NCBI GenBank assembly: GCA_020055645.1
Contig: CM034546.1
Span: 65,906,001 to 65,970,000, forward strand
Reading direction: 5' to 3'
Source: Tomocerus qinae
Lineage: Eukaryota > Arthropoda > Collembola > Entomobryomorpha > Tomoceridae
Length of the DNA stretch: 64,000 bases
Both the position numbers and the translations under genes were made by a program. This document shows positions 20,501-60,729 of the stretch, in pieces. The stretch's first letter is position 1. Every line of letters begins with the position of its first letter. The notes beneath the pieces are model-generated. The model saw only the letters and a list, made by a program, of their open reading frames with translations, did not search any database and was not told the DNA's origin.

Positions 20501-23500
20501 TCGATTTTAGACACACGCTCAGCGATTTTGGTTGCAATCTAAGAGGGTCGATGTAAGTTGTGTAGATTATGTAAGTAGCTCCTCATATATGATTGACATT
20601 ATTTCTTTGAATTTAATGATTTTTATTTCCTGCACTTTAATACAATCCTTTCATCACAAAAAATCTTAAAGTAGGTAAATCATTTTCCCATGAGATTTTT
20701 AATTTTAATAAAACCAGCATATCTCAAAATCTTATTTAAAAATAATCCAAAACACAGTGATACGTTTCCTTTAAATTCACAAAATTTTCATGTAGGTAAA
20801 TCGTTTTCCCTTAAGTTGGGCAGAATTTTATAAAAACATTTTTATTTTTTCAAAACACGATTTCAAAATTTCATATGCGGTTTTAAAAGTTGAATTTCGA
20901 AACAATTTTAAAACCAAATCTGGACAAAGTTATTACTTAAATTTTGGTAAAGGTTTCATTTAAATGCGGAGAGTATTGACATTTTTAATTCTCAAAATTT
21001 TTACCTTTGGAACCCCCCTGCCAAATTAATTTTTTCCTTCAAATTGGTTTCTTGTAAAATTATAAGCTATCAGAAAACCTAATAATTTCACTCAATGATG
21101 TCATTATTTTTTTCAAATAATTTCTGTCATTATGAAATAGGATGCTTTTTAACTTTGTTGAAACTCAAAGGGTTGGTAGCTGAAACATGTTAATTAAGTT
21201 GTCCACAAATTGTATTATGTTTTTGTTTCTCCTTATATTCATACGGTCATTTTCGAAATTATCTTTCTTTCTGGTGTTATATATTAATTTTATTAATTAA
21301 TCATTTATACTAGTTAACGTGGCATGAAGCCGTTTGTTGCTGTCATCACTTTGGCAAGGCAGTAATCAGTCCACTTACTAGACCTCACCTACAGGGGCTC
21401 AAAAACAAATTCTTAGATGCTCTGGGTGATGACAATATTATTGGTTGGTCTGATGCCTTTGGCTTAAACGATGGACGTTATGTACACCTATTGACCGGCG
21501 TTGTGATAAATCAATACAGCAACATTCTAGACTACACTGTCGGTAATGCAGATCGAGGTTATTGCCTGAAAATCGGACAAAGCCGCAGAACAGGACAACA
21601 TTATTTGTTGTATACCGCACAGTGCAGTCAAAGTAATACAGTCACACAGAATACAAGGCTTATATGCAGCAATGAACAATATCCAGGTGAGTTGTATTCA
21701 AATTATGACTTGATAACGACTCCTGCCAAATAAAAAACTAATACAAATTCCTTATTCACTTACTTTTTTGAAGATAACACTAAATTTTGAAATAGTTTTT
21801 CCCACGCCTTATTTGCACGCATTTAAGCCAAATAAATTTTAAAAAACAAAGACATATTCTTTTAAAATATGCTTGAAGTTGTTTCCATCGTGCCGGTGGA
21901 TTTATTAAACTATATTTGTGCCAATAGATTTTGGTTAATGGAAAGCAGGTAGCCTTGAAAGCCTGCGTCGCATAACTTATGAACTTTTAGAAAGAAATGA
22001 GATTATCCTGACCCAGATGGAATATTATAATTCCAAGGCAAATAAATGTTCGGTCATATCTGGTTATTGTCCTACCCCTAAGCGTTCCTATTAGTTTCAA
22101 AACGTTACTCTCGCCACGCTTCAGCCGAGGTATTCTTATGCCTGAGCGTGTCCACTTTATAGGGTAAAGTTGGGCGAGGATTAAAAATATCAATGTTCTT
22201 TGCAAACCAGCCCGTTTATATTATATAGTAAGTTTTTATGTGACTGATGACCTTCTATAATATTGTATTATTTGTATTGTATATATGTATTTTTGTAGCG
22301 CAATGTTTTAATCAAGCAGAGGGTTGCACTACAAGAACTGTAGATGAATGTGCCAATTACGTGGTTGAGAGGGGTCCACGCCCTCCGGAACCTCCTTCAC
22401 CAACCCTTCCTGAAACTCCTGAAACTCCTCAACCTCCTCCACCTCCTCCACCACCCCTTCCTGAAACTCCTGAAACGCCTCAACCTCCTCCACCTCCGCC
22501 ACCACCCCTTCCTGAAACTCCTCAACCTCCTCCACCTCCGCCACCACCCCTTCCTGAAACTCCTGAAACGCCTCAACCTCCTCCACCTCCGCCACCACCC
22601 CTTCCTGAAACGCCACAACCTCCTCCACCTCCGCCACCACCCCTTCCTGAAACTCCTGAAACGCCTCAACCTCCTCCACCTCCGCCACCACCCCTTCCTG
22701 AAACTCCTGAAACGCCTCAACCTCCTCCACCTCCGCCACCACCCCTTCCTGAAACTCCTGAAACGCCTCAACCTCCTCCACCTCCGCCACCACCCCTTCC
22801 TGAAACTCCTGAAACGCCTCAACCTCCTCCACCTCCGCCACCACCCCTTCCTGAAACTCCTGAAACGCCTCAACCTCCTCCACCTCCGCCACCACCCCTT
22901 CCTGAAACGCCTCACCCTCCTCCACCTCCGCCACCACCCCTTCCTGAAACTCCTCAACCACTTCCACCTCCTCCACCACCCCTTCCTGAAACGCCTCAAC
23001 CTCTTCCTCCTCCTCCACCACCCCTTCCTGAAACTCCTCAACCTCTTCCACCTCCTCCACCACCCCTTCCTGAAACTCCCCAACCTCTCCCACCTCCTCC
23101 TCCACCCCCACCCACTCCTACAACACCCCCACTACCTCCTCCACCACCCACTCCTCCTCCACCCACATCCACTCCTCCAACACCACCACCAATACCTCCA
23201 CCTCATTCTCCACCCCCAACGCCACCTCCTCCTTCACCCCCACCCACTCCTACAACACCCCCACTACCTCCTCCACCACCCACTCCTCCAACACTACCGC
23301 TACCTCCTCCACCCCCACCAACTCCTCCAACCTCTCCCCAACCTCCTCCACCGCATCTACCACCACCACCTCCGGATGGTAAGTAACTAGATGTAAAAGC
23401 TTACTGATTTTCACAACGACGTAGGAAAAATGACATCTATTTAATTAATTATGAGATTGCAATGGTATTATTATTGAACTCGTACGTTGATAAATATGCA

Positions 23501-30953: not shown

Positions 30954-33900
30954 CTATTTAAACTGTTGCTCTGTAATGGTTGTTTTGCGATGAATATTGT
31001 CTTCTATTTCATATTGTACAAATTGCTTATGTAAATCATTTCCATAAGCAACTCGTTTTACATTGGGGGGAAGTACATTAATATCTAGTACGTTTATATG
31101 TCCAGGGTTATTGACAAAATTCCAAATTATTAAATACTTGGAATGTAGCAACAGTGATATAAACGGTTTTTCTTCTAGTATTTCTTTCAAAATGTCACAA
31201 CCACTTAAGATTAACTTATCCAAACATAATCGACTGCCGTGAGAAATTATTTGCTCTAATTTAATTCTCTCTAACTTCAAAACTTTTAAAGATTCGGGAA
31301 CTAATCTTAGGTCTAATTCTGATGACCTTATGGTTAAAATTTCTAAAGGCGGATCGTTACAATTGGGTGGGCTCCAAAATGAGCTAGAAAGGTCACTTTT
31401 CAGATTCACTCCTGTCAAAGAAAGCTTTTGTAACCATGGAAGATACTCCAGAGTAGTAGTGTAACCCCGAGGACATTCACTCCATTCAAACTTATCTACA
31501 CGTAAAGACGATAAGTCAATTCTTTCGTTTTTTTTATTCACACAATACAAATGTATTCTTCCTTTATTGCTCCTATCTTTTTTCACTGTACACTGTGATT
31601 GTGAAATTGTAAAAGAACTACTTGGCTGACTGCTACGGCTGCTTGTACAACAAACTAGTGTATCAATGATTTCAACTGTTTGAAGGTAAGTTAAATCCAT
31701 CAGGTCTATAGTACAGAATTTCAATTTCGTAATTTTTAAGTGGTCAAGGTTATCAAAATTACTTAAGAAAGAGTTGGCAAGATTGTATTCATTTGTACTA
31801 CTTCTGATAAACTTCGTTTTGTACAGCTCAATTTTCGATGTTGCTGAATTTACTTCTACGCTGTCACTCACTATTGCTATATTTGAAGGATTAGTAACGG
31901 GAAAAGGCAATAATAATATGCAGTTTGCACAACCGCATCTTTTGTTGCTCTCTTCCAAGGTCACGGTAGAATTCTTAATTACCAATTCCTTAAATAGATG
32001 GTAATGAATAGCTTTGTCGGCACATATACCGTTTAATAATAAAATTTTTGAATTTTTGTCAAACTCAATTATACTGCTTACAATTTTAATTCTGTAAAAC
32101 TGTAATTTAAAAACAGACTCCCAAACGCAATACCCACCACTGAAAAAAGTACAATAATCTATTGCGTCAACATCCAATTGGCTATAATTATTTTCGGTAG
32201 CTAATTCCAGGTCAAAATAAGATAATTTAGGAAGCGCAACTTTATATTTCCAAGTACCCCAGGTCCTGATGTTCTTTAATGTAACTTTAACCACGTTGAC
32301 ACATTTAGAAAAAAAATAACTAAGTTCTAACATGTCGATTGTAATATTCTCTAAACTTACAACAGTCAACAATTTCCTTCTAAGACAAAACGTATCCCAC
32401 ATACTCAAAGGTCTATAAATGCTTTTTCCATTGAAACTGAATCCTAGTTCTGGCAAAGGAAATATGACAGGTATGTTGTAGTCTTCTGTAAAGAATTAGA
32501 TCAAAGATTAATATTCAAATATGTTTTTATATAAGTATTTATACTAACCATTATAAGACGCTTCTTGGTAGATGGGGATGATAGTTAATTCAGGTCTTTC
32601 TGAACATTCCCGGTTAATGATGGTAGAAATATCTCCAAAAGCTTTAAAGAATTCTTCCAATTTCCCTGTTGCTTTGAATGTTTTTTGTAAATCGATTATT
32701 AGTTGATTGCAACTGGAAAAACTTTGTTTTTCAAACTCAACTGAAAACATTGATAAACGAGCCAAGGAGAATAGTTTCTTTAGTGTTTCCAAAGATTTTT
32801 CGTACATCGTATTGTGTCCATGGGCGGAAACGAGCATAGAAGTTACTTCTACTAATTTTTTGAAAAAGTCGTACCAAATTGGAAATTTTACCCAATGGGT
32901 TTTATATTTTATTTTTGGGATTGCAGCGTCAAACAAAACAATTACATTTTCTGAGTCAAGCTTGGCTCTATCTAAAACTAATCCTAATCCAAATTGCAAA
33001 ATTACTATCATTTCTTCAGCCATGAATATTTCTTCACAGAGAACTGGGAATAAGATTTCGATATTTTTGTAACAGAGGCTGGCAAAAATGTTAATCAATG
33101 TTAGATCTTCTACAAAATCTGTCAACGGTTGTACTTGAAGTTCTGTTTTCTTGGGACTATTTGTCACAAAATATTTTTTTAAATCGATAATAAAGGAGGG
33201 TGACATTTGTTTAAATAATTTTTGGGAAAATTCTTTCAAAATTGTAATAGACTCGGCTCTTTGTCCGTCTTTTTCCAAACAAATAGCATGGTTGTACATT
33301 GAAACCAAAAACTGCATTTCTTTTGAAGGTACATTAAATGATTTCCAAATCATTGATGACAAAGTAACTGCTTCGCTAAACCTTTTTTCCTTTATAGTAA
33401 CTCCGAGAGTTGAACTTGGTCGATCAATTGGGATCTTATGTAGGAAAACTCCTGTTTATAATCGTCATGATTTTCAGCGTGGAAGTAGGGTATAAATTTT
33501 TGGTTAATGCTAGCGGAGCTTAGTAATATTTTTCTAAGTATATTGCTTTCTTCTTCTCTTACATGATATCTTATCATTTGCTGCAGCAATCGATGAATGC
33601 TGACATACTCAACCTCATTTTTTGTCTCAACCCTAACAAGTGAGTATTTTTCTAATAGAGCGACTGAATCTTGTGTCGTACAAGTATGGATAACTTTCTT
33701 GCTACCCATTCAACTAATTGCAGGTCTACAATGCTTATTTCGTCTGATTGCATGTACCCTAAATTCTCTAAAATAATCATAGCACACTTTTCGGTTGTAG
33801 TATCGTCACGTATAATATGATTCAAAGATATTTCCATCGTTTTATAAATGGTCGGTTCGTAGTCAACGAAATTTTTCTTAAATAAATCGCTCATCGCTTT

Positions 33901-35045
33901 ATCACCTCTAGCCAAATTGTCTACATAGTCTCTAATTTTTGTTCGCTTGACATTTAGAGTAGCCACTGCAATTTGTAAAGCTAACGGAAGATTGCCGAGC
34001 AGCCCACCTAGCTTTTTTAATTGTAGTTGATCGGAGAAAGAAGACTCATTGAAAGTCTCTCGATTCAGAGAGTCTTTAAGGAACTCGAGCGTTTCTTGTT
34101 CACTAAAGACATCCATGCAAAATTTAGGAATTGACCCATACCCTGTGGTGGATCCCCACTCTTGGTTTCTTGATGTGATTAGTGCATGCATCAGGGAATA
34201 TTCTTTTGACGGAAGAACGTGTAGGATTCCATCAGTGTCATTATAACTTTCGGCATTGTCGTAAATCATTAAACATTTCAACCCTTGTAATTTCAAAAAA
34301 CATTTTTCAGCCAACTCTATTAACTTGTTTAATTCGCTTCTATTTTCAATTTTTAGGTCTCTTGCTAAGGATTTAAATGAATCTAAAATCATTCCTATCC
34401 CGCAATCGATCCAGATTATGTAATCATATTTATTCGCGTAATGGTTGGCAAAAGATTTAACAATGGATGTTTTTCCAATTCCAGCTAACCCTAAAACGAC
34501 TACAGTATGTTTGGAGATCATCTTCACTGTCTCACTTTCATTCCCTTCTAACATCGAGGACAATTTTTCTATTACTAATTGGCCTTCAACTTTCCTTTCA
34601 CAAAATGAATTGACCATGAACATTTCCCTAGGCCACCATTTTTTTATTGGGAGTTTGAGCTTCCTTTCGGTTTTATGATTTTTACTTAGAAAACTCGATT
34701 TTATCGACGAAGGTTGCAAATTCATTGGACTAATTGGTTTACATTTGGCACCACTTTGACTCGATTGAGAAACCAATGTTCGCCGTGGTTGTAGAGTTGG
34801 CCTATTTTCTAATATATCAGCCAAATGTTTATTCCCCGTGTCTTTGAGAATTTTCAAGAGAGCGTTAATAATGTGGCAGCCTTTTTTCTTCAGAAGTATA
34901 AATAATTCAGAATTTTGCTTGTATCCGTTTCCCTCGTTCTTCTATGAAACATAATATTAGCATAACTAAATCACTCTTATATATTCTATAATATAATCGC
35001 ACTAATACCTGACTATCTATGTCTTGGTAGGGGAGTCTAGGAAAC
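30954..35045 (-). CDS. NLR-like protein: CARD, NB-ARC, helical region, LRR-like end (two frame changes)
   Basis: Exons: 35045-35009, 34941-32549 and 32485-30954; the introns have good GT-AG ends (the last is 63 nt) and matching phases. The first two exons end a death-fold CARD: LPYQDIDSQ, then LFILLKKKGCHIINALLKI and LKDTGNKHLADILE. The NB-ARC ATPase follows: P-loop VVLGLAGIGKTS (near 34480), Walker B CLMIYDNAES (34260), ALITSRN, GGLLGNLPLALQIA (33990) and the MHD-equivalent SIHRLLQQMI (33590). A TPR-like helical part (AICLEKDGQRAESITILKE) leads into about 510 residues rich in LxxLxL segments, probably a leucine-rich solenoid. The large exon changes frame near 33700 and near 33400. It could be an intracellular sensor or apoptosome-like scaffold. 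5' exons for the first CARD helices were not found. Confidence 0.75.
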
Positions 35046-35932
35046 CTGCATATTATATTACTAGTATAATATAAACATGATTCAAATGTATGTATGTTGT
35101 ATGTTTGTGTGTACGGATGTTGTAAAGTTATGAATGTTATTACTCGGCCACCGTACGGTTATTTCAAAATGTATTAACAACACAGTTTAATTTATTTGCA
35201 AAAGATGCTAAATTCCATCCAGATGGAACTTGGTTTTATGCATATACGCTTGCGCGGGGATAAAATTATGAAAGTCACTTGTGAGACGTGGTAGTTGAAA
35301 TTCTTTCTTTCAATTTAATATACCGTGCCGTGACCTTATTTTACACGCAGGAAAGTTTAAAATTTGGCTATTCATATTAAAAATATATTTTTTTCAATTC
35401 TCAAATGGTTGTAAGCTAATAGGAGGTTAAATTAAAAATGTTTTATGTCTTAAATAGAAAAGCTAAGTCCATTCTAAAATAGAAAATATTCAGACCGGGA
35501 TGAAGTGGTAAACTATTTTTTTTATTTCAAATGTGTACGTTTTGAATCTTTGGTGACTTGGTGGTATATGTAATTAGTTATTCCAAACCAAAAAAAAACA
35601 AAATTTCTAAAACTTCAGCTTATTACGACCAAGGGCCAATATTTTTGTGTTGGAATTTTATTGTGAGCGGTACTTACTCTGGTCACCCATTATGGTCACA
35701 TTTTTGACTTGGGGTAAAAAGGTACGTCAACGTTACTCTGACTCATCATTATGCATACTGCCAAGCATAGATATAAGCATCCCATCCATTATACCCAACA
35801 TCCCCATCCAGGTGTTTGAGTTGGCTGAAAGGGATGTGTCGGTGATGGCTGTAATGATACTTTATTTGGAAACTGGCGATGGGCTGTATTAGATGGATAA
35901 CTTTATTTGGATATTGGTGATGGGCAGGATAA
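35046..35932. other. intergenic stretch upstream of the NLR-like gene
   Basis: Nothing is recognised. The missing first CARD exon(s) and promoter of the NLR-like gene could lie here or beyond the mobile elements to the right. Confidence 0.4.
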
Positions 35933-36512
35933 TATCGTCCCTTAAGGATCGAAAAAGCCTCTATCCACTTTCAGATTGGTGGACGAATAAGCCTATATCC
36001 ATTTTTTGTTTGGTGGACGAATAAGCCTATATCCATTTTTTTGTTTGGTGGACGAATAAGCCTATATCCAATTTTTGTTTGGTGCAGGAAATAGCCTCTG
36101 TCATCTTACAGCATTACGTAAAGTTGTCGGGGCACAGTAAGAATAAACAAGTTGACGGAATGAAGTATTTATTATTTTTATGTTGATACTTGAAATATAT
36201 CATGCTAGAATGTACATAAGCATTATAAAATTTTAGCTAATTACACAATAAGACAAAAACAAAACTTTTAATGACACAAATTCGTATTTTGATATTGGAT
36301 AAAACTGAACTGGCTGGAAGGAAGAATAAAATTTCAATATTTCCGCCACCCATATTAACTATGTATCAATACGCCCCTATAACTTTACAAGCAAAGCTGC
36401 TAGAGGATAGAAGCTATTTCCTGCACCAAACGAAAATTGGATATAGGCTTATTCGTCCACCAAACAAAAAATGGATATAGGCTTATTCGTCCACCAAACA
36501 AAAAATGGATAT

Positions 36513-36923
36513 TGTAATGGTATTTAGGTGTAAGCTGTATTATGTTGTGTCCTGCAATAGTATGTACTCTAGTAGTAAAGTAGTCATAGCGCTAAGAGGA
36601 ATGTTTGAATATTGGCGTAGCCAATAAGAGTGAGTGAGCTCAGCCGAATGAGTCTGTAGCTTAATAAAAGCAATGTAAATGTATGAAAGAGTACTCAGTC
36701 ACGGATAGAGACTCACAGAGATCGAGTCGGAGGAAGAAGTCTGAAATAAAGATTGGATAGTTGGCCGTTGACATGTAGTCCAAGAGTGGTGAGTCGTCAT
36801 TATTTCGTCGGTCATGTCATTGTCATCATGTCATCCTGGCGCCTGGGCGACCTACCAATTGCTCATACTATCTGAACTAGCTACATTCATCCCCATAACC
36901 CCGTAGTGAGGAGCTTCATTACA
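36513..36923 (+). repeat. left LTR (411 bp)
   Basis: Begins TGTAATGG, ends CATTACA; identical by eye to 41448-41858. Contains AATAAA-type signals near 36663 and 36743, which suggest where transcripts end. Confidence 0.9.
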
Positions 36924-39900
36924 GAAGATGCGGGGTATTGTCTGCTTCAGGAGGAAGACTGAGGACGATGGACTTGGCGACGACGACGAAGACATCATGC
37001 GGGTAAGGTTAAGTATCGTATTCTAAATTATGGGGATAATTAGAAATTGTTTAAATTAAATTGGGGATAATTTTGGGAAATTGTTGAATTATTTGGGGGG
37101 CGTGATCAGCAGTCAGTCATCACTGTAAAATATTTTTGGGTTGAAATTTAGATTGCAAATTATAATGTGGGATTAGTTTGTTTCATTAACATCAATTTTG
37201 GGCTTCCTAAATATATTTAAATCGTAAATTTTGATGGGGAATTAAGTACATAAAATTCGTGTGAAAGGGAAAGTGATGACTACATATTGACTTTTTGGGG
37301 AATTGTATAGTGATACAGGGTCACAATAATTTTATATGGTCAATATAATAATTGGGGAATCACTTAAAAATACTATCATTATAATTTGGGGCATGAAATC
37401 TGTAGAAAAAGGTATTTTTGTGGGTCACTATTGTGTAGGTACTGTTGAGTTGTCATTTTGGGGGCGTTAGGGAATTATTTCGACATAATGCGTGGATATT
37501 TCTTATTTGTAATAACATTTCTGAATTTCTGTGCATATAAAATTCAGGTTTAAATAGATTTTTTCAAATTTTTGGTATATATGGGTACGTATACAGTTCC
37601 AGGGTTTCCTGGGCTGACATTTTTTTTATGGGTTGGATAATTGGGGTAAAATTCATTAAATAAATTGAGAAAAATTACTTTAAGCCAGCATTTCATGGGA
37701 ATGTCTATTACAAAAAATCTAAAATTAAAATTAGGATGAATTTTGAAAAAATTATATTTAATTAAGTAGGGAGTCAATATTGTCCCACCGAGTGAACCTT
37801 GGTACATTGCTCCAAATGTATAATATAGTGTAGTAGTGTTAGGGTGGTAGCTGCGGAGCGATGCTAAATCTCTCATGGCTAAGCGATAATTTCTAGTAAT
37901 TTATGTTGATAAGTGGCGACAGTCTAGCCGTCCAACTCCTAATTTATCTTTCGTTGAACCTAGTTGAAAGTCAGATAAAATAGGAGGATGAATGCTTAAT
38001 TAGCTAAAAGGACGCTCATGACTACATAATTAAGGTTACCGTCTGGCCACATGTTAATTATATAATTTTTTATCAGTTAACAAGTTGAATGTGTAATGGT
38101 GTGTGTGTAATCTAGGCCTAACTAGTGAAGAATAGAGTTTATTTTAATTTTAGAAGGGAGTTTTCTAGAAGTTAAACAAATTCAAGTCTGTGTGAAATTA
38201 ATTTAATTTTGTTTCTTTGAGATAATCTTTGTTCTGAGACTATGATTGGCGACGAGAAAAAATGTGAATGCTAATTATTTTTGGCGACGACAGTCTGAAG
38301 GCCAATTGGACATTGTCCTCCAGCCACTAGACACGAGAGGATTCCATGATCAGACACTGACCGAGACAGACGTAGAGAGACGAGCTGCGGTGACGAACAA
38401 CGAAGTCTACCATGGAGAGTGACGATGAAGAAGATTCTTTTTTGAGCAGCCTTAGTCTTGGTTTATGGGTTCTTGGTTTCAATTTTATTTGATTATTTGA
38501 AATTTATTTAATTATTATTGAATTTATTTGGTATTTTGACGACATTGGAATTTGAGTGAAAATAATTGGGCATTTAGTAGAAAATCTGAAAATTAATTTA
38601 TCGTTTTGAGAAATGTCTGGATTTAAAATTTTGATTCTTTTGATTTCTTGGAATTTTGATTTGAATTTAATTCTTTTTGTTATAAAAATTAAAATGATTT
38701 CTTGAATTTGGAACGGGTTTTGTACATAAAAGGTGTAATGTGTGTTGAGTGAGAGTAGTATAGTACACATACAAGTACAATCATGAGTATCCGAGTTTTA
38801 TTTAAGTTTGAATTTTGATTTCATTTTGAGTAAAGTTAAGAAGGTTTGAAATACTACTGTTTCTGAAAAATGGGCTAAATACTTTAAGAATGTTTAAATG
38901 AGACATAATTTTGATGTTGTTTGAAAAAGTAAATGCGTAAAGATTTTTTGATTTTCAGTTTAAGAATAGTTAAGAATAATTGGACAATTTTGGTAAAAAT
39001 TATAGAAAGGGAAACTTAAGGCTGATTGGGTTATATTATTTAGTGCAGTAAGGTTTGAATTCTTCGATTGTCTATAGTAGCCATAAATTGGGGAATATTG
39101 TCGAAGTTCTTATTGAATTCGTTTCCTTGGCATGGTGAAACATAGGAATCTTGAGAAAGAAAAAATAACTTTTGCGACTAATAAATCCTTTTAGTCATTT
39201 TGTATTGATTCAGTTTCTTTACAAATTCCTAGCGGTGCAGAAAGAAAGAACATTTAAATTTTAATGGTATTATTTTTGTTTTGAAAACTTTGAGTTGTTT
39301 AAAAATAATTTCGTAAAAGTAATAACTATTGGGAGAATAGTAAAGTCAATTTAATTGGGGAAATTGTTTTTGAATTTGTTGATTTTAGAAAAAGGTGTGA
39401 ATTGTTGTAAAGAGTTAATGAAATTGCGTATTTGATAATTCAATGACTGATTACTACCTACCTACCTAAAGAAAAAAGCTTGTTAAATCTAGTACCAGCA
39501 GAGATAGAGGACCCTGGGGTAAAATTAGGTGTTGATTCGCCACACCCTACGGTTTCTTTGTGCATAGTTGCTTGAAGGAATTCGCGGAGCAAAGCACGTA
39601 CTAGTGAGCTAAAGGTCAGAACACAATGGGTATTAGCTTACCATGTTCCCGTGGCCATACTAACATTTAAAATCTTCTACTGTACTAACATTCCAGTCAC
39701 GAATTAGAAATAGTTGTCTGCTAACATCTAATGAAGGAGTACAATAATTCTACCTAACTACGTTCTTTGATTAAATTTTGTGTTGAAATTGGGATAGTTT
39801 TTGATTAATTTTGTATGTGGGATATTGACTTTATTATTATTGGGTTTCATAAACCTTAAGATTAATTTGGGGAATTTTGAGAATGCCACTAAAATATTAT

Positions 39901-40127
39901 GTTGTATGGAGTAAGTATTTGCTATTGGAATTTAATTCTAATCCTACTTTGCTGACGAGTAAAAAGGGATTTATTATGTGTTTATTTTTGTGGAGTGCAT
40001 ATAGTTTGTAGGAACATTTCTGTCTGTCGATTCCGAAAACAGCCTTAGGAATTCTTCACGTTCGGTGAATCATTCGAGCTGAAAGGAAATGAGAGGGAGG
40101 AATTATATAATTTAGAGTTAGTGAGAG

Positions 40128-40290
40128 TAGAAATCCTGAGACCTACGGGGGGTAAATCCTGAGACCGACGGGCGGTGAATCCTGAGTCCTACGGGGGGAA
40201 TAAAATACCGGTCGAAGGAAGGCCGACGGGAAAATACCGGTCGAAGGAAGGCCGAAGGGAAAATACCGGTCGAAGGAAGACCGAGGAAAT
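40128..40290. repeat. GC-rich tandem repeats inside the retrotransposon
   Basis: Three copies of an AATCCTGAGACC(T/G)ACGGG unit are followed by three copies of AAAATACCGGTCGAAGGAAG. They stand out in the AT-rich interior and may mark a leader, packaging or structured region; that role is a guess. Confidence 0.75.
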
Positions 40291-41447
40291 AGATTAGGAT
40301 AAGGGCAAAGGTGCCAAACGACCTCTGAGCCAGGAAGGACAAGTCGAAGTTAGTTAGTTAAAGCCTGAAGAGTATACCAGGGTAGGAATGAGGTCTGAAA
40401 ATTTAAGTATTTCTGGGAAAAACAAAGAGGATTACCACAAAGTGTCATACGTAAGGATTATTTGAAGCAAGGGATTACCCGGAATTTCATTGGTCATTGT
40501 TTTTGTGGTTTTTGGAAATATTTTTATTTACGTGCCAATAGAACCTATAGTTAGAATAGTTATAATAATATGAAATGTATTTGTTTGATGTGAAGAAATG
40601 CATTATTAAAGATGGGGAAGTAAATGAAAAGTAATTTTGAGTTTAAAATGTTTGAATTTTGATGATAAAAGTTTTGATTTAATGTTTTTGAATAGTAAAA
40701 TGATGTAATTTTGATTTTTGTTGAAATGAAGTGTACTCCAGGAAGTAAGAAACAGTAGGTATTGAATAATCGATGTTGATTATAAAGAGTCTAAAGGTTA
40801 AAGACGTTTATGATTTAAAAAGGTTTATGAAATGTTTTTTATGTGCTAATTGGAATTTATGCTGTATTTTAGTGTGAGCTGAGTGATGATGTGTTTTACT
40901 GTCTTTTTGCTGAATGTGTCCGGTAACAATAAGAGCAAGCGAAATAATGAGAATCGGTGAGATCGAGGTCTAATGACTTAAGCCGATAGCCGATGTGGCT
41001 CCTGGGGTCTTTCTAAAGGTCCGAGCCGAAGACACAAGCGAATTGTAAATCGACATGGAAAAGAACGAACGCGATTTTCAGCGAGTGCATTAAATTATTT
41101 TTTTGAATTGATTGATATTATTTTGATTGACATGGTTTTTTGAAATGGTTTGGTTAAAAGTATTTCGATTGGCTGTTTTTTTAGAAATTAAGGATTACTA
41201 TTAGGAGGTATTTTGTATTGTGAATTGTAAGAAATGAAATGTGAAATGAATTGTATGCGAGTTTCATAGTGTAGTTGTTTAGCATTAGATATTTTGTGTT
41301 ATTTTATTTGATTTGAGTTTACTTAGTGAAAATCTTTTTAAATTTGGATTTGCTATTATTTTTCAAAATTGTTATTGGGGACGTTTCTAAAAATTAAATG
41401 GGGTCCGACAAATGTGGAAATTTGTCTTGGAATAAAAAGGGGAAATA

Positions 41448-41858
41448 TGTAATGGTATTTAGGTGTAAGCTGTATTATGTTGTGTCCTGCAATAGTATGT
41501 ACTCTAGTAGTAAAGTAGTCATAGCGCTAAGAGGAATGTTTGAATATTGGCGTAGCCAATAAGAGTGAGTGAGCTCAGCCGAATGAGTCTGTAGCTTAAT
41601 AAAAGCAATGTAAATGTATGAAAGAGTACTCAGTCACGGATAGAGACTCACAGAGATCGAGTCGGAGGAAGAAGTCTGAAATAAAGATTGGATAGTTGGC
41701 CGTTGACATGTAGTCCAAGAGTGGTGAGTCGTCATTATTTCGTCGGTCATGTCATTGTCATCATGTCATCCTGGCGCCTGGGCGACCTACCAATTGCTCA
41801 TACTATCTGAACTAGCTACATTCATCCCCATAACCCCGTAGTGAGGAGCTTCATTACA
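41448..41858 (+). repeat. right LTR (411 bp)
   Basis: Direct repeat of 36513-36923, preceded by a polypurine tract and followed by the duplicated ATAT. Confidence 0.9.
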
Positions 41859-41924
41859 ATATAGGCTTATTCGTCCACCAATCTGAAAGTGGATAGAGGC
41901 TTTTTCGATCCTTAAGGGACGATA

Positions 41925-43590
41925 TGTTGATCTTTTCTTGGGTGTTTGGTGATGATGGGATGGATGGGGTTGGATGTTCCATCTTTTGCATTGGATGGGA
42001 TGTTTACCTACAACTTACATCTATGCTGCCAAGTGTTATTCTGTTTTATCCGACCAAGTAAATAAACTGCTTCCCCTCACGCACCAGGTGGGTGAGGGGA
42101 AGAAGTACAATCTATCCATCTTACAATATTGCCCTGGATTACGCACTAGCTTTATTTATAACAGGGCCTGGGCCCTGTGACCGGCTAGTATTGTATAATT
42201 ATAGTTGTCGGTTTATGCACAGAGGTTTATCTTTACTGTATTAGTATCGTCTGCCTAATAACTGCAATGCGACAAACCTTATTGTCATTATTTTAAGAAA
42301 ATAGGTAAAATTTTTCAAAAACTATACACTCTTGTGGCGCCAAACTTTAATTTTTTTTTTAAAAAGTGGCTTGTCACATTATATTACTTTGTTAAAAATA
42401 CTTTTTATTGGCCTTTTCACAAGTTGTCAAAAATCCATCAAATTTAATTAAACATAGAATCTGGCTTTTAAGTAAACATCACATTTAATTAAATTACTTT
42501 GACATTCATAGTTTTCTCACAACACTAATGTCTTTTTCTTCATTAAAAGCGGATTAAGACTCCTTTCAAATGGTAATTGTAACAGTAGCATAAATCAAGC
42601 ATGATAAAAATTATTTGATGACCATATGCAGCCAAAGCCATAACTAACAATGCATAATGAAATAATGATTCAAGAAAAAAAAACTTACTATTGAGTCGTA
42701 TTCAGGTTGTCAGTTGTGTGATGATTCCACTTTGAAGTAAGCATACCAGGACCTGGAGTACGTTGCACAAACCATTCGCCAAAGCATTCAAATTTCTAGT
42801 AATAATTTCATTTTCTTCCATTTTGTAATACTGCACTAAAAATCATTCAGCTTTAATTATTATTAAAACGTGCAACATAGTTTTAACTTCAAAATGGTTC
42901 CTGTAACCTGTGTCGGTTAATGGTTTCTGTATCTGGTTCAAATCTCAGCACAAACTTATACCGAGGTATGATATTATCATTATAATAATAGCTACACAAG
43001 TACCCTTTAGCATCAAGCTACGAGGTTCAAATTTTTACTGGATGTTCACCTCATAGTCAGAACCTCAGATGATCATTTTCATAACGATTGGTTTCATAGA
43101 AATCGTTTTATGATTTTTTGAAAATCAAATTTTAACATGGGAGGGATAGGGAAAAACTCAAACTGCCAAACCTATCTCCTCCTACAGTTTTCAACCAATC
43201 TCCATCAAATTTTTTTGAAGCTTCTAAGGACCAATATTGAGGTCCTCAAGTGGCGGATTTTTAATATTTTGATTCTACGATTTTTAAATGAATTTAGAAA
43301 ATTCAATTATCCATTCGTGCTTCTCCGTGTATAAGGGGCTACAGTGACTACGCACTGTAAATGCGACCATGGCCCACATAGGTGGCGCATGTTCTCTTTC
43401 CCTTCAGCTTTATCTACACCTGCTCGGTTGTTGGGGCTGCGAGAAACGAACAGTTTAGTTTCAATAAACATAAGGTGAAACAGAAATAGATTTTTTGGTT
43501 CTTCAGTTTTCATGTTTGAATATCTGTCAAATAATTCATGATTTAAAATAAAATAATTGGACCAAATAACATGTAAGGGGCAATTAAAAT
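41925..43590. other. non-coding stretch, nothing recognised
   Basis: No gene-like frame. Short G-rich text around 41940-42000 loosely mirrors 35760-35820, outside the foldback element. Confidence 0.4.
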
Positions 43591-43639: not shown

Positions 43640-44491
43640 AAGATTAAAATGGGTTAATTAAAATAACGGGGTTAAGTAAAATAACGAGGTTAATTAAAAT
43701 ATTGGAAATGTTTAAAATAAAGAGGTTGTTTAAAATGTCGGGGTTATTTAAAATCACGGGGTTATTTAAAACAACGGGGTTATTGAAAATAACGGGGCTA
43801 TTTAAAACAACGGGGTTATTTAAAACAACGGGGTTATTGAAAATAACGGGGCTATTTAAAACAACGGGGTTATTTAAAACAACGGGGTTATTTAAAACAA
43901 CGGGGTTATTTAAAACAACGGGGTTATTTAAAACAACGGGGTTATTTAAAACAACGGGGTTATTTAAAACAACGGGGTTATTGAAAATAACGGAGTTATT
44001 TAAAATAACGGAGTTATTTAAAACAACGGGGTTATTTAAAACAACGGAGTTATTTAAAACAACGGGGTTATTTAAAACAACGGGGTTATTGAAAATAACG
44101 GGGTTATTGAAAATAACGGGGTTATTGAAAATAACGGGGTTATTGAAAATAACGGGGTTATTGAAAATAACGGGGTTATTGAAAATAACGGGGTTATTGA
44201 AAATAACGGGGTTATTGAAAATAACGGGGTTATTGAAAATAACGGGGTTATTGAAAATAACGGGGTTATTGAAAATAACGGGGTTATTGAAAATAACGGG
44301 GTTATTGAAAATAACGGGGTTATTGAAAATAACGGGGTTATTGAAAATAACGGGGTTATTGAAAATAACGGGGTTATTGAAAATAACGGGGTTATTGAAA
44401 ATAACGGGGTTATTGAAAATAACGGGGTTATTGAAAATAACGGGGTTATTGAAAATAACGGGGTTATTGAAAATAACGGGGTTATTGAAAA
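43640..44491. repeat. 18-bp minisatellite, about 42 units
   Basis: Units alternate between GGGGTTATTTAAAACAAC (mostly 43755-44085) and GGGGTTATTGAAAATAAC (44086-44491, more than 20 near-identical copies). Copies decay to the left into looser GTTAATTAAAAT text from about 43590. Because the period is divisible by three, long frames are open on both strands; they are not genes. A separate TAACCCC/GGGGTTA inverted pair lies near 44615-44650. Confidence 0.93.
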
Positions 44492-45304
44492 TGTATGTTG
44501 ATTCGATAAGTATTGTATTTTTCCCGTGAGTAGGATGTTGTAGAAATGTAGCAAGCAATTTAAAAAAATTAATCTGTTAATTTTTATGCTTTTTTAATGC
44601 ATAATGCACACTTATAACCCCTTAATGTGTAACCCCATTAAGGGGTTACCCATTTCCCGTTCGGAGAACGGGCCTATTACTAGTATTATATATTCATAAA
44701 CTGTTGAACTGTTCCCCTTTTCACTGATAGTAGTAATGTTAGATAAGGTGTTCGAATATTGAGTATTGGGTAGTAATACCTTTATTTAATATGCTCAATG
44801 TTTTCAAGATAAACATTCCTTATCTCAAAGCATGTTACCTATGCCTGCAATGTTAATTTGCAGTAATATTTAGTCATAAATATACCATACCAATCTTTCA
44901 GACATTGTTTTGAGGAACTGATGTATGTAGGGCATTTACAATACTATATAACTAACATTACAATAATATTAATATGAAGCTGTACAATTAGATATGTAGA
45001 TAAAGTTTTCAACTCATCTATTTATCATAAACATTACATAAGCTTCAAAATATCTTGTCGTTGTACAAATTTGTATTGTCTTTCTTTTGGCATATAGGTG
45101 GTTATAGATTCTGAGTGTAATACAAAAATATGACCAATCCTCTTCATCTTGTGGGATGTGAATGACGCAAGATAAGAGCTATATGGACCAAGTGGGGTGC
45201 AATAAATGTAACTATGATTAGGTATTCTTCCATAAATGGTTTCGAATGATTTAGTTATCAGACTTGAGACATTTCGCACGCACACGCTGCAAATCCCTTG
45301 TCAC

Positions 45305-47402: not shown

Positions 47403-50400
47403 ATGGAAAAAATTTTAGATCGCCAGCAATCTACCGAAGGAATTCACGGAGCGGTTATCTGCTTAATTTGCATGCAGATGTGTCATAATCAAGTCACGGA
47501 ACAAAATCTTGACAATGAGACCTTTAGACATCATCAAAATATTTTTCAGAAGGTTTCGAAGTATTTATCTCATGAAATTTATAAAGTAAGCTGTCAATGG
47601 GATTTTGTTAACCAACGAAGATCACCAATTTGTGCCACGTGTTTTTCTTCTGTTGAAAACATTTACAAAAATATTGACATGCTCCAAAAACTAGAAAACA
47701 CAGTTCAAGCGTTGGTAAATTCTTTCACCGTAGAAATTCTCAAACAACACAACAGACTGAAAAATGTAGCCAGTGAAAATGAAAATTTCGCCATTTATGT
47801 TAAAGAAGATATTAAAGACGAAGTGGAAATAGAATTAGAGCTGTCGACCATTTCTGATTCGATAATTACAAGCGACGAGGATGAAAATATTGAAAACAAC
47901 GAACTTAATTTTCTAAATGCTAAGCCATCAAAATCAGTGAACAGAACAATTATTTCTTCTAGAAATGGTAATAACTATCTTGTGAGTACACGATTGTTTA
48001 AAAAAATTTAAATGAAGCAGAATATTCTGAGTTAAAGAAGTTGTTCTTCAAATTGTAGAAATAGTTCAAAATAATGACAACGCACTTCTATTTACATTTT
48101 ATACATTTTTCATTTCAGTTACGAATGCCGGCATTCAAGACTTAGATGTCCTATCAACATATCCTGGAGTACATCTTAAACCCCTCAAAATTATTCTAAC
48201 CAGTAAGTTCATCATTAAAGCACGAAAATCAAGAAACATTTATATAACCCAAGATATTGGATAAAATCAGATAAAAGATCCATTAGTACAGATTTAACAA
48301 TTAAAGATTTTTCAATTGAAGTTTTGCAATTTTGCAACAATTCCACATTTTGTTGAACTTTTTTTTCAGAGAAGACGATTGGGCATCTAATTCTGAAGTG
48401 GAAAGAAGCAATGGCGAAACAGATTCCGAATTTTCGGATGGTCCTGATTATGAGAAGGATATGCAATTACAGAAGACACAGAATATAACGAAAAGGACAA
48501 AATATTTCAAAGCTGCTAAGCGATACAAATGTCAGTTAAGGTCCTGCAATTTGTCATTCAACTTCGTGAAGGATTTGAAATCACATAGTGTCAAATCGAA
48601 GCATAGCAATCTCCGAAAATACAAATGCACTAAGAAAAATTGCGCCAAAAGCTTTTTCAGCCAGAAGGATTTGAAAAATCACATTAAATTTGACCATTGC
48701 GATGACGATCTGAAGTGTCAAAATTGTTTTAACGCATTTAGACACAAGAAAATGCTTCGAATTCATCAGTTTAATTGTCACATGACGAAAATGTTCAAAT
48801 GTGATGAGTGTACCAAAACGTTTTCAAGAAAACTTAACTTTATTCATCATAAAAAATTACACTCGGGACAGTGCTCTGAATGTAAAAAGTGTACTAAAAA
48901 CTTTAAGTGGAATATTTCTCTCAAACTCCACGTCAAAGCTAACCATGGCAGAGGTAAGTTTAATTGCAAAATATGCAGTAGACAGTTTACAAGTCGTCAA
49001 AAATTCCTAGAACATCATTCGGTCCACTTTAAGAGTAGAATTGGAAAAACATTTCCATGTGCTGCTTGCAAGAAAACTCATTTTGTGGAAAATATCTGGG
49101 ATAACTGCGTAATCAAACATTTACGGAAAAAAGAACAAAAGGGATTTATTTGTGCAATATGCCTTTTGCCTTTTAAATCATCCAGAGAACTTGACAATCA
49201 CAGTAAAGAAATAGTTCATCGCAATAAAAAATTATTTCGGTGTAACATCTGTAAAAAACGTTTCTACAAACATGATCAATTAATACAACACACAAGAACT
49301 CATAAATATTCTGGCAGCTTTAAATGCAATGTCTGTGGAAAGCAGTACAAACAAAAAGCACGTCTTCGCTCTCATAGTAATGTCCACAGTGGCAAAAAAC
49401 CTTACAAATGTCAAATATGCAATGAAGCATTTCATGAGCGTCACGGGTTGAGATACCACTCGCAATTTTGTGTCAAAATTAAAAAAGGCTCAGAAAACAA
49501 ATCTTTTGAGTGCAAATTCTGTGAAATGGTTTTTGAAACTGAAAGAAAGTTAAAATTGCACGGAAAAATTCACCCACGACATAAAAAGCTACCGTGTAAA
49601 TTTTGCGGAAAAAAGATATGTAAGTTTTTCTTCCTAAAACATTTGGAATTGCATGTGAACGCTAAAGACCAGTTCAAATGCAGCAAGTGTGACCTTGGCT
49701 TTAATCTTAAATATAAATTAGACAGACATGAACTAATGGCTCATACAGAAGAGAGACCGTTTCCATGTTCTTCTTGTGATTTAAAATTTAAATTGAAATA
49801 CCTTTTAAAACGCCACACGCAAAGAGTACATTCTGCTTCTAGCCGCGTTTTATGTGACACTTGTGGAAGAAATTTTGCGACCGAAGATCAATTACGTGTG
49901 CACAAAAAATTACATACAGGAAATTTGGTAAAATGTACTTATGACAACTGTAGCAAAACTTTTTATCATAATTCTCAGCTTGTGCACCATATAAAATTAA
50001 AGCATACAAAAGAAATACAGTATGTTTGTGAAGTGTGCCAAAAACGTTACTACTCAAAAACAAATTTTGAAATTCATCAACGTACACACACAGGTGAAAA
50101 ACCATTTCCTTGTCCACGTTGTGACCAAAGTTTCATTAGCAAACTTTGGCTGCAGAGTCATATGGCTACAGTACATAGTGAAAACGATTTTAAATGCGAG
50201 ATTTGTGGTAAATGTTTTGGTCGGAAAATGCACTATATGGTTCACATGAAATCTATTCACGGGGAAAATAAATACAAGTGTGAATTTTGTCCGTACTTGT
50301 GCAGTCGGAAGGACAATTTGACTACCCATGTTAAAGAAAATCATACTCATGTTAAAGAAAGACCGTTTGTGTGTGAAATATGTGGCAAGGGCTATAAGCG

Positions 50401-50491
50401 TAAGCATGTCCTTGATATTCATATGAAAGGACATGATAAGATCAAGGAAATGGAAAATCAGCTGTCAGATATTGAGTCTGACAGTGACTGA
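47403..50491 (+). CDS. ZAD-C2H2 zinc-finger protein, about 22 fingers
   Basis: Exons 47403-47967, 48119-48202 and 48372-50491 join in phase 1. The start ATG sits in gaccATGG. Residues about 15-110 form a ZAD, the arthropod zinc-finger-associated dimerisation domain (CLICMQMC at the N-terminal pair, CATCFSSVENIYKN at the C-terminal pair). An acidic linker follows (EDIKDEVEIELEL, TSDEDENIE). The last exon carries about 22 C2H2 fingers, mostly C-x2-C-x12-H-x3-5-H, several joined by TGEKPF-like linkers (THTGEKPFPC). At least one is degenerate (the PCAACKKTHF finger). It is likely a nuclear, DNA-binding, dimeric regulator; the target is unknown. The third acceptor is a cagag tandem AG; only the second AG keeps the frame. 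Confidence 0.9.
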
Positions 50492-53732: not shown

Positions 53733-54318
53733 ATGGCTGTTATTAATTGTAAATTACATTGGCATTGCAGCCCTTTAAATTCAGTTTATTTCGTTAAAAA
53801 GCCGTAAAAAGAGCGAGACAAGTGCTATTAAATAATAAAAACAATTAGATTTTCTGCAAAGTGTCCATAAATGGAAATTGTAATAAAATACAAGTCTGTA
53901 ACATTTAAAACTAGTTTTTGAGGAATGATGCTCAATTATAAATATACCTATGTACTTGTAGTACAGACTTATAGAAAATTGTTCACAAAAAGTCATAATC
54001 TGCCTTAATACTTCTGGTCTTGATATCTCATTAGAACTTGTGAGAGTATGCCTTTGTTTGTATTTGTGTTCATCATTGCAATGTAACATTGAATTTAGTT
54101 AATATTTCTAGTATTGTATTTAGATTTAGTACTATAGTATTAACGTAGTGTGTTAGAACTCAAATTAAGCTTAACTCCTTGGAAAATGAAAAATGTAAAG
54201 TAAGTGGATTTGTATATCCACTAAATTAAATCGACTCTGCTTTACTTACGCGACTGTCCTTTACGATTTTTCATAGATATTTGAAATGCTAATGTAATCC
54301 AATAATATATTTGAACAG

Positions 54319-54797
54319 CCCTTGCTGCCCCTGCCGAGAGTTATTCTTTAATTAAAAGTACGAGGGGCAAAGATTTGTTACTGGATTCGGACAAAAACAC
54401 TTATGATATGCAGAAATTTGGACAAAAGGGCAAGAAGATTTGGCGATGTACCCGTTATAATGATTTGAAATGCAAAGGAAGATGTCATACAATTGGAGAT
54501 CAGATGTTCCGAACACAACCCCACTGTCATTTGGAAAACGGAGAGGATTTTAAATGCAGACAAGTAAAATCCAGAATCAAGGAACTAGCCGCAACAACTG
54601 ATGCCTCCGCGTCTGACATAATTGCAACGGCTTTGGAAGGCGTAGAAGAGGAAATTATAGCCAAATTGCCAAAAATGAAAACGTTGATCATTATCGCTAA
54701 CAGAGCCAGAAATCCGAATACATCAAATACAGCCTCCAAATCTCCATACAAAATATTACAAATTCCTACAAATTCAAATAACGATAAATTGGCTTAA
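54319..54797 (+). CDS. alternative 3' end 2: FLYWCH-type zinc finger
   Basis: The exon starts after ttgaacag and opens in phase 1, matching the phase-1 end of the shared exon at 52928. It encodes SLIKSTRGKDLLLD, then WRCTRYNDLKCKGRCHT and TQPHCH, the Cys2-His2 layout of a FLYWCH finger. A helical tail (RQVKSRIKELAATT, ATALEGVEEEIIAKLP) is of the sort seen after FLYWCH fingers in MULE-derived proteins. It has its own stop. As it has no start region of its own, it is best read as an alternative C-terminus of the 51817 gene. Confidence 0.75.
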
Positions 54798-55059
54798 TTG
54801 ATGCGATTTACCATTATTAAAAAATGACAAAATCTCCCTCTCCAGCTGGAAAATTGAAAATACTATTTAATACCACATACTATAACACTTCCGGTTTGAA
54901 TTTGTCGAACAAAAAATAATGTGCATAGGTTTTTTATAATTCGAAGATGTATTGAGATAAAGATTTTTGATTAAATTAAGTTGTGTTTACTCAAATATTA
55001 TGTACTATTTATTCAAACTTATTTTTGCTATTAAACTACGCATTGCATAATATACTGTA

Positions 55060-55086
55060 AATCAATCAATCAATCAATCAATCAAT
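55060..55086. repeat. (ATCA)n microsatellite
   Basis: About six uninterrupted ATCA units between the two FLYWCH-type exons. Confidence 0.9.
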
Positions 55087-55277
55087 ACCATTCATGATTA
55101 ATAATAATATGCTAAGATTTAAGTTGAGGATTTCACTGAAAGTATTTTATTTTTTTAAATCTGCTACTATTATTATATTTAAAACTCACCCATCGCTATT
55201 GTGCGATTTTAAAGGTATTAATTATTATAAAACAAAAGTGTCTAAAAATGTTCTGTTTTGTTTTTATTCATATTTAG

Positions 55278-55850
55278 AGTTACTACTGAGTTCAAAGGAT
55301 ATCGATCAGGTTCATTTTGTAAAATCCCAACGAGGCAAAGATAAGTTGGTCCACGCTGGTTTCGTTTACTGTCATATCAAGGATTTAAAAAGCGGTGGAT
55401 CAAATTGGACATGTGAAAAGCGTCCTAAATGCAAGGCGAGCATAAGTTACTCAAAAAGTAGGGGGCTGGAAATGCACAGGGACCATGACCACCCTGCTGA
55501 TCCTGGCAGGTATTATTGTCATTGGCCATGTATTTAAATTTCAGATTGTCGCAAATAAAAATTAGTCTTCGAATTTCAAATCTCATTTTATTTATTTATT
55601 TTTCAGGTTGGAAGTTTTAAACTTAATGGAGAAAATACGACAAGAAGCGCAAATGCCTGACTTAATGCCGTCATCTATTTATGCAAAAGCAATTGCAGAA
55701 CTCAGTGCAGAGGCTGTAGCCAGTATTAATAAAGAGAGTTGCAAGAGATTGATACGGAATCGGAAAAAGAAAAGCATGAATAGTGATAACTCCAAGGACA
55801 AAGAACCCAAAACGCCTGAGCCTCAATCATCGAAAATAGATAAAGTGTAA
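55278..55850 (+). CDS. alternative 3' end 3: FLYWCH-type zinc finger, two exons
   Basis: Exons 55278-55509 and 55607-55850 (phase 2 between them) form a third possible C-terminus. The first opens in phase 1 after tatttag, so it too can follow the shared exon ending at 52928. It encodes FVKSQRGKDKLVHAGF, NWTCEKRPKCKASISY and MHRDHDH, a FLYWCH-type arrangement, then EVLNLMEKIRQEAQM and a basic, Ser-rich tail (RNRKKKSMNS). The basic end could be a nuclear localisation signal. Which end is used, and when, cannot be seen from the sequence. Confidence 0.72.
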
Positions 55851-59102: not shown

Positions 59103-60729
59103 TTTTATCCAAAATGGTGTAGTGTAATATCCGTTATTGGAAAATTGGAAATTGGAATAGTATATCCTCAAAAAGTGAATTTAACTCTTCGTCTTCGCTA
59201 ATTTTAAAATTTGACTTCGTTAAAAAAACTGTTTTCTGAAAATTTAAATAGAAATGACTTGATATTGGTCTCACATTCATAGTCACATTAACATCAACCA
59301 CAATGGTACAATTCAATGATAAAATATGGTGCGAAATACACATTAGGTATCTATAATAATATTTTCTTTCTATATAGACCTCTGTCTCTTGATTCGTTGA
59401 AATAAATAAAATATTCATATATCTCGAATCTCGACTGGAAAACAAAGCCAGCAAGTAACAATTATTAAATTATTTAGAAGCTTTCATATTTGCTTAACAT
59501 ATTTTTTTGGACACTGAAGTAAACCAAAGGTATGTGCGATATAGATTGTAAAAAAGCGGTCTGGTATGTATTGCTTCTTAAAGCATTAATTTATATGTGC
59601 CTATTTATGTGTGTATTCATTTTCATACACATACCCTAAGGAAATTAATGTACTGGAAATGGAATAGAGTCCAGTACCTTATATTATGTCTAATGGTATA
59701 CTTACAGATAATTCAAGCAATTTTATTTCAGTCCAATGCTGATATTATTACATGACCATCCGATTACCTCGATACATAATACTTATATACATGGAAAGGA
59801 ATGTTATATAAGCATAATAATATGAATATGAATACGGCCAAATGTCCAAGGCTTTTTTGTGTCCCAAATAGGATTAATATATTTATGGATGAAGTACTAA
59901 TTTAAATAAATTTTTACTATAAATTATTCTCCCATTTTAAATAACTTTAAATTGCGGACATTAAAATGTTTTACAATTTTAGAAAAATAAGAATACATTT
60001 AAAAATCAAAGTATCATTTACTCTACGACGACATTTTGTCAAGCTATACTTGGAATTGGAATAAGCCGAGGAACAAGAAGCCTTAAGTAAACACAAATAT
60101 CACGAAAGTTATAACATGAAAAATACTAGAAGCCACATCGAGAACAATTTAAATACAGGTCGGAAGACTATTTGCGTATTCAAATTATCAATACGATGCC
60201 AAGTCAAGTTATAACATGCAAACTTCCAAGGACTACTTCCAAGAGCAATAAAGAATTATTTAAATGCGGACAGTGGGTTTATTTATGTAAATTATCAATA
60301 CGGTGACTTTGAAAACAGACTACAGGCAGGTTTTTCCAGTCCCAAACTGAACAAAGCCTTTAATTTTCTAAACTAAAAATTTCTAATCAAACTAATCCAG
60401 AGTTTTAAAAGTTGGACAATAATCGTTATCTTTTTCGACAGCGCATTTGTAAATTCATTAATACAATTCGAGTTTAGTTACAAAAAAAACTCTGTTGTAA
60501 ATATTAATTAAAAAGCTATCGAAAATTGAATTACCTGCTTCAAATTTTTATGCAGCATTTCTCTTCGAAAAATATTGGACTAAAATAATATATGGGTATT
60601 ATAGAATACAAGTGTTGAAATTTAAAAATAATAATAATTATATCCTATAACCAATAATTTCTCACTGAACCCAAAATACGGAAACTGCTACTACCATTTC
60701 CAAGACTCAATTATAAACGATAAGAAAAC
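59103..60729. promoter_or_regulatory. shared upstream region of the head-to-head IR pair
   Basis: 1.6 kb without a supported gene separates two divergently transcribed IR genes and must hold both promoters. A 106-codon minus-strand frame (59134-59454) overlaps the IR1 leader and looks like chance. No specific promoter motif is claimed. Confidence 0.45.

Follow-up and report, generated by a model that had tools for sequence, protein, structure and literature searches.

Does an arthropod genome encode sensors of the NLR type, that is, nucleotide-binding leucine-rich repeat (LRR) receptors, which are said to be missing from various arthropods? The question is raised by a gene in a 64,000-nucleotide (nt) stretch of the springtail (Collembola) Tomocerus qinae (the window, C1:65906001–65970000), which we analyzed against the 334-Mb springtail assembly of 115 contigs. 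Translated with the invertebrate mitochondrial code, the COX1 of this assembly shares 97% identity over its full length with Tomocerus caputiviolaceus and 96% with Aphaenomurus, which places it near or within Tomoceridae. An original prediction made from the window's letters had placed a CARD-NB-ARC-LRR-like gene of an arthropod at 30954–35045. The architecture and the arthropod host were both borne out, and the gene extends further, to 42821, with three frame breaks unremarked earlier. We think it likely that this locus is a decayed copy, probably a pseudogene, belonging to a large family of intracellular NLR-like receptors of springtails in which the domains run CARD, NB-ARC, winged helix, tetratricopeptide repeat (TPR)-like helices, and LRR. 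In our best reading, the family turns over by birth and death, and its CARD-NB-ARC-LRR sensors were put together independently of the vertebrate and plant NLRs.

The gene lies on the minus strand (42821–30954) and has three exons. Exon 1 (42689–42821, 133 nt, followed by a GTAAGT donor) encodes the first half of the CARD; it was sought first by eye up to 7 kb upstream of exon 2 and located by tblastn at 7.7 kb, and a search of the window with the family exon-1 profile (11 paralogue rows) returned 42821–42689 at E 8.8e-8, with a runner-up at 0.015. A repeat-filled intron of about 7.7 kb (34942–42688) splits the CARD. Exon 2 (32549–34941, splice ends set by eye) carries the CARD second half, a linker, the NB-ARC, the winged helix, and the TPR-like helices, with two of the frame breaks. 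The stretch 34941–30954 is spanned by four overlapping or adjoining minus-strand open reading frames (ORFs), including one with the CARD second half (~34929–34804) and NB-ARC (~34515–33913) by Pfam (33655–34941), one with the end of the winged helix and an IHRLLQ motif (33395–33709), and one with the TPR-like helical segment, homologous from ~33395 and assigned from a structure model of the paralogue L003 (32547–33455). A 63-nt GT-AG intron of phase 1 (32486–32548, by eye) separates exon 2 from exon 3 (30954–32485, stop codon included), which encodes the 513-residue C-terminus, an LRR solenoid by predicted structure.

The CARD, of which only the C-terminal half had been recognized, is real. 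This half alone (34941–33655 ORF) reached E 0.046 in Pfam, and the two halves joined, with an X at the frame break, reached 47.9 bits (E 1.4e-12; cut-off 23.9); joined CARDs scored 44.8–55.6 bits in all eight sequences (seven paralogues and the window). The ATPase is of the NB-ARC type (42.8 bits, E 4.8e-11; cut-off 23.5), while NACHT on the window protein stayed at 18.4 bits, below its cut-off of 26.7. The predicted P-loop, Walker B, and GLPL residues are invariant in a 17-row family alignment (P-loop G162, G164, G165, G167, K168, and T169; also D238 N239 and L324 P325 L326). The IHRLLQ motif, proposed as the MHD equivalent, is conserved in the same rows (I455, H456, R457, and L458 in at least 90%; L459 and Q460 invariant) and lies where the strands of the winged helix end in the paralogue structure model, presumably the position of MHD. 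DUF7779 scored 19.6 bits in the window and 23.2 in the paralogue L002 (cut-off 27). The predicted helical segment stood in part: it is helical in the L003 model, TPR_19 exceeded its cut-off in two of the nine family ORFs scanned (L027 and L029 only), and the segment of the window copy had no confident Pfam match. Fold matches of the main exon were led by Apaf-1 and included proteins combining a signal transduction ATPase with numerous domains (STAND) with TPRs, CED-4, and the plant NRC; any NB-ARC protein that has a winged helix would be expected to match Apaf-1 best.

As modeled, the C-terminal exon is an LRR solenoid and not WD40. Its AlphaFold2 model (predicted local distance difference test, pLDDT, 72.8; predicted template modeling score, pTM, 0.71) forms a solenoid and matches LRR proteins in structure searches, and of the 50 VIA rows returned for the C-terminus, not one is titled as a propeller. 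A WD40 C-terminus, whose blades the original prediction had named as a reason to abandon the idea, was rejected on this predicted structure, and the roughly 510 leucine-rich residues of that prediction retain their LRR assignment by fold.

The CARD, NB-ARC, and C-terminal exons recur in the same order in related loci, as expected if they are joined in one gene. The window's clade comprises 16 loci (the window and L002–L016), and in 14 of them, all but L015 and L016, the NB-ARC match is followed 1.2–3.0 kb further along the same strand by an LRR-exon match. The genome holds 22 LRR-exon matches (the window and 21 others, several per locus), 20 of which are explained by an NB-ARC partner; the remaining two, at C1:40178697–40179116 and C1:40169715–40170038, have no partner NB-ARC in the set of 16 loci. 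At all 11 loci measured, paralogue exon 1 has a length of 120 nt, counted from the aligned start up to the donor (GTAAG or GTGAG), the aligned start being an ATG in 10 of them (the ATG of L002 comes one codon later), and paralogue exon 2 carries the CARD second half fused to NB-ARC. In these 11 paralogues, 23–839 nt separate the donor from the beginning of the exon-2 ORF, a lower bound that understates the CARD intron because the ORF often starts inside it. Exon-1 profile matches were found at 17 of 29 paralogue loci (L002–L030), 11 of the 17 being the profile's own rows and that of L010 being cut by the locus edge. L003 has two tandem CARD exon-1 copies upstream of its NB-ARC ORF, possibly alternative first exons. 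In a more distant member, L066, the CARD second half, NB-ARC, helices, and C-terminus occupy a single 1124-residue open frame, with a CARD exon 1 upstream and a C-terminal stretch of LRR-like spacing by eye; the window-type LRR-exon profile gave no match to the C-terminus of L065 or L066.

The family is large, by the paralogue count that had been suggested. A genome NB-ARC profile search scored 126 of 253 candidates, all 126 above the cut-off, and a genome protein search scored 98 of 308. Merging the NB-ARC matches from both gives at least 149 loci, a lower bound in which CARD and LRR were not part of the criterion, with 139 on contig C1 and ten, counted by hand, on C5, C14, C18, and C107. One of these (L034) is Apaf-1, and at least 148 are others. 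On C1, 30 of 138 neighboring NB-ARC pairs lie less than 50 kb apart. The whole main exon is one open frame in nine of the 15 clade mates of the window, and the other six are without a full main exon, as in birth-and-death families. Nei-Gojobori ratios of nonsynonymous to synonymous substitution (dN/dS) for the 12 closest pairs listed were 0.17–0.40 in the main exon and 0.38–0.75 in the LRR exon. These values indicate constraint across the family, with purifying selection on the NB-ARC exon and weaker constraint on the LRR exon, which evolves faster.

Three members, L027, L028, and L029, carry a different N-terminus of about 370 residues ahead of NB-ARC (L027:2361–3552, L028:2301–3426, L029:427–1614). 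This alternative domain contains a Gly-rich hydrophobic stretch and had no confident Pfam match and no PDB match; in blastp against a small set, L028 and L029 matched the Dryococelus protein P0007 at 7.8e-5 and 8.0e-4, respectively. Our guess is that it could be a membrane-active signaling domain.

Judged by sequence, the springtail NB-ARC is closest to bacterial NB-ARC/DUF7779/TPR proteins. Its far best NCBIfam match was NF040586, the bacterial FxSxx-COOH system TPR protein (113.4 bits, E 1.2e-32, below the 300-bit equivalog cut-off). In a large protein collection, a 17-row springtail profile found the 1039-residue protein P0004 first (E 5.2e-88), followed, in the best 120 of 149 matches, by the TPR protein P0005, Nasonia and Dryococelus proteins, and many bacterial TPR proteins. 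A PDB profile search found AfsR and Roq1 at E 0.01 and did not find Apaf-1, with a profile of 21 springtail and two bacterial rows, the inclusion of the latter being its weak point. In a 54-row tree, all 30 springtail family rows fell on one side of a branch (support 61), and a second group held 20 of the 21 other database rows (support 99), with P0004 apart and the genome's Apaf-1 far away. An independent origin of the family, as the original prediction had proposed, is supported by this NB-ARC type, not proven. We lean towards the view that a full NLR repertoire (at least 148 NB-ARC loci, Apaf-1 not counted) arose independently in springtails, put together from a bacterial-type NB-ARC/TPR switch, a CARD or a second N-terminal domain, and fast-evolving LRRs. 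Bacterial contamination was rejected, given the introns, the 140-Mb contig, and eukaryote-type neighbors with C2H2 and FLYWCH domains. Within the same 140-Mb contig, L062 (C1:36670928–36672268) holds a full-length COX1 with 12 TGA codons, and there are further partial copies; this would be a nuclear mitochondrial insertion or an assembly join.

The combination of domains differs from each of the known systems that it resembles. Bacterial NF040586-type proteins resemble the family in an NB-ARC and a DUF7779-like winged helix, which both score below the respective cut-offs, and in TPR-like helices, but no CARD or LRR accession was noticed among the precomputed domains listed for them. The NB-ARCs of Nasonia LOC100678007 and Dryococelus appear in the same profile search and the same broad tree group, and L028 and L029 have their alternative N-terminal domain in common with Dryococelus; in contrast, the C-termini of the Nasonia and Dryococelus proteins are ankyrin, with TPRs added in Nasonia, and no CARD appears in the Pfam table of Dryococelus or among the 25 families listed, of 35, for Nasonia. 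Apaf-1 and CED-4 share the order CARD, NB-ARC, and winged helix, whereas Apaf-1 bears WD40 and the APAF-1 WHD, and the springtail has a separate Apaf-1 gene. Vertebrate NLRs of the NOD1/NLRC4 type have the order CARD, STAND ATPase, and LRR, as in the springtail family, but the ATPase of vertebrate NLRs is NACHT and that of the springtail is NB-ARC. Plant NLRs (NRC, ZAR1, Roq1) share NB-ARC with LRR and are fold matches; their N-termini are CC (coiled-coil), TIR, or RPW8, unlike the springtail CARD, and the springtail proteins differ further in the TPR-like segment between NB-ARC and LRR. In the broad sense of an NLR-like receptor, the family combines a central STAND NTPase, an N-terminal CARD, and, by its model, a C-terminal LRR.

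In STAND proteins, a CARD-NB-ARC-LRR layout implies an autoinhibited switch that is opened by ligand, oligomerizes, and recruits partners through CARD-CARD contacts. In intact members of the springtail family, the NB-ARC would rest closed, probably ADP-bound, until the variable LRR/TPR part binds a microbial or damage ligand; binding would then trigger nucleotide exchange and oligomerization, and the clustered CARDs could recruit a CARD-bearing caspase or adaptor, leading to cell death or defense. An immune function of the family is our inference. Among 38 caspase-domain exon matches in the genome, L068 (C4, ~17648602–17649970) stands out as a candidate initiator CARD-caspase and a possible partner of the NLR-like family: its CARD second half (L068:624–869) scored 24.0 bits against a cut-off of 23.9, with caspase exons (1231 onwards) about 0.6 kb downstream on the same strand. 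In the other seven of the eight caspase loci examined, the family CARD profile matched nothing at E 0.5, and L031 has a further CARD exon (35.2 bits). Apaf-1 itself would need a CARD-caspase partner.

The copy in the window is unlikely to be a functional receptor. Compared with paralogues whose main exon is open, its frame shifts twice: near 33736–33667 within the winged-helix region (frame 1 to frame 3, placed approximately by blastx against paralogues) and at ~33395 (33390–33400, frame 3 to frame 2, with no residues lost relative to most paralogues). Its exon 1 measures 133 nt versus 120 nt in paralogues, with the frame broken between ITQ and EYDSI, and its end branch (0.89) exceeds those of all 29 other family rows (at most 0.57). 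Because of these three frame breaks and the longest end branch, the copy is probably a pseudogene. That it is instead a working gene, with breaks due to assembly errors or unrecognized tiny introns, we consider decidedly unlikely. The NB-ARC segment is itself open and single-base indels could account for two of the breaks, but the third falls in an exon that has 120 nt in 11 of 11 paralogues, and the breaks lie outside long homopolymers (by eye). Introns at the breaks were rejected, the main exon being open there in nine of the 15 clade mates, and the long end branch also speaks for decay. What stands of the original prediction is the CARD-NB-ARC-LRR architecture in an arthropod, in a large family distinct from Apaf-1; its reading as a receptor is not supported for this copy.

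For the family as a whole, the alternative that its members are expanded Apaf-1-like apoptosis adaptors with a diverged C-terminus, and not sensors, appears very improbable. A canonical Apaf-1 is present separately: L034 matches human Apaf-1 at 5.8e-35, with the APAF-1 WHD (PF21296) at 50.0 bits, APAF1_C at 64.8 bits, WD40 at 25.4 just under its cut-off of 27, and a CARD second half at 17.1 bits, below cut-off. The winged helix PF21296 and the helical domain PF17908 are present in L034 and absent from the Pfam tables of the scanned family members, which do not list APAF1_C either; the PDB profile matches at E 0.01 are likewise AfsR and Roq1, and the C-terminus of the family is LRR as modeled. 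A role in developmental or symbiont-related cell death, or in self-recognition, in place of pathogen immunity is fairly unlikely: STAND proteins do many things, but the size, clustering, pseudogenes, and faster LRR exon would better fit a recognition arms race. Several observations weigh against a family of independently assembled CARD-NB-ARC-LRR sensors with a decayed copy in the window. Searches for LRR in the C-terminus with Pfam, NCBIfam, and PDB profiles, paralogues included, returned nothing at or near significance, and TM-scores to single LRR chains were at most 0.36. The main-exon model, made from L003, is weak (pLDDT 63, pTM 0.40). The 54-row tree has long branches, a rooting support of 65, and the family support of 61, and its Apaf-1 row was assembled by eye from exons. 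For many dN/dS pairs dS exceeds 1, and the faster LRR exon is estimated partly from truncated copies, among them two of the three closest. The evidence for exon joining is genomic; the frame breaks may in part be assembly errors; and the shared domain is the only link between the CARD-caspase and the NLR-like family.

The open-access literature searched contained no report of such genes in springtails (Collembola with NB-ARC, 0 papers), subscription papers and bioRxiv being outside its coverage, and a prior description outside that literature is possible. Papers on Folsomia, Orchesella dallaii, Holacanthella, collembolan antimicrobial peptides, a collembolan transcriptome, and Campodea mention neither NB-ARC nor NLR in their main text, nor NACHT where this term was also looked for. 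Uncharacterized TIR clades in non-model arthropods are noted in a preprint on eukaryotic TIR domains, in passages that do not describe such genes (PMC13142454). If this view is right, NB-LRR sensors would have arisen once more with the springtail family, in a phylum with members said to lack NLRs, and the presence of well over 100 NB-ARC genes in one soil hexapod, many of them joined to CARD and LRR, would narrow the generalization that arthropods lack NLRs. It would also provide a natural comparison for the assembly of tripartite sensors and a candidate explanation, open to testing in cultured springtails, of how these animals cope with microbe-rich soil.

The CARD intron of the window copy contains a mobile-like element of about 6 kb (35932–41925, no strand assigned), with perfect 67-nt terminal inverted repeats (35932–35998 and 41859–41925) and an identical 300-nt direct repeat (36513–36812 and 41448–41747). 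Rfam and tRNA scans of the 64-kb window gave no matches. Two long, intronless ORFs of 774 and 832 residues, at 60724–63048 on the plus strand and 56682–59180 on the minus strand, had no Pfam match at 0.01; by eye they are alike and also resemble divergent ionotropic receptors. The insect odorant-receptor family 7tm_6 had a single match in the genome (31.7 bits). Elsewhere in the window lie a proline-rich repeat ORF (22244–23383), a minisatellite open in several frames (43648–44526), a C2H2 zinc-finger gene (48320–50488), and two FLYWCH domains (54315–55534).

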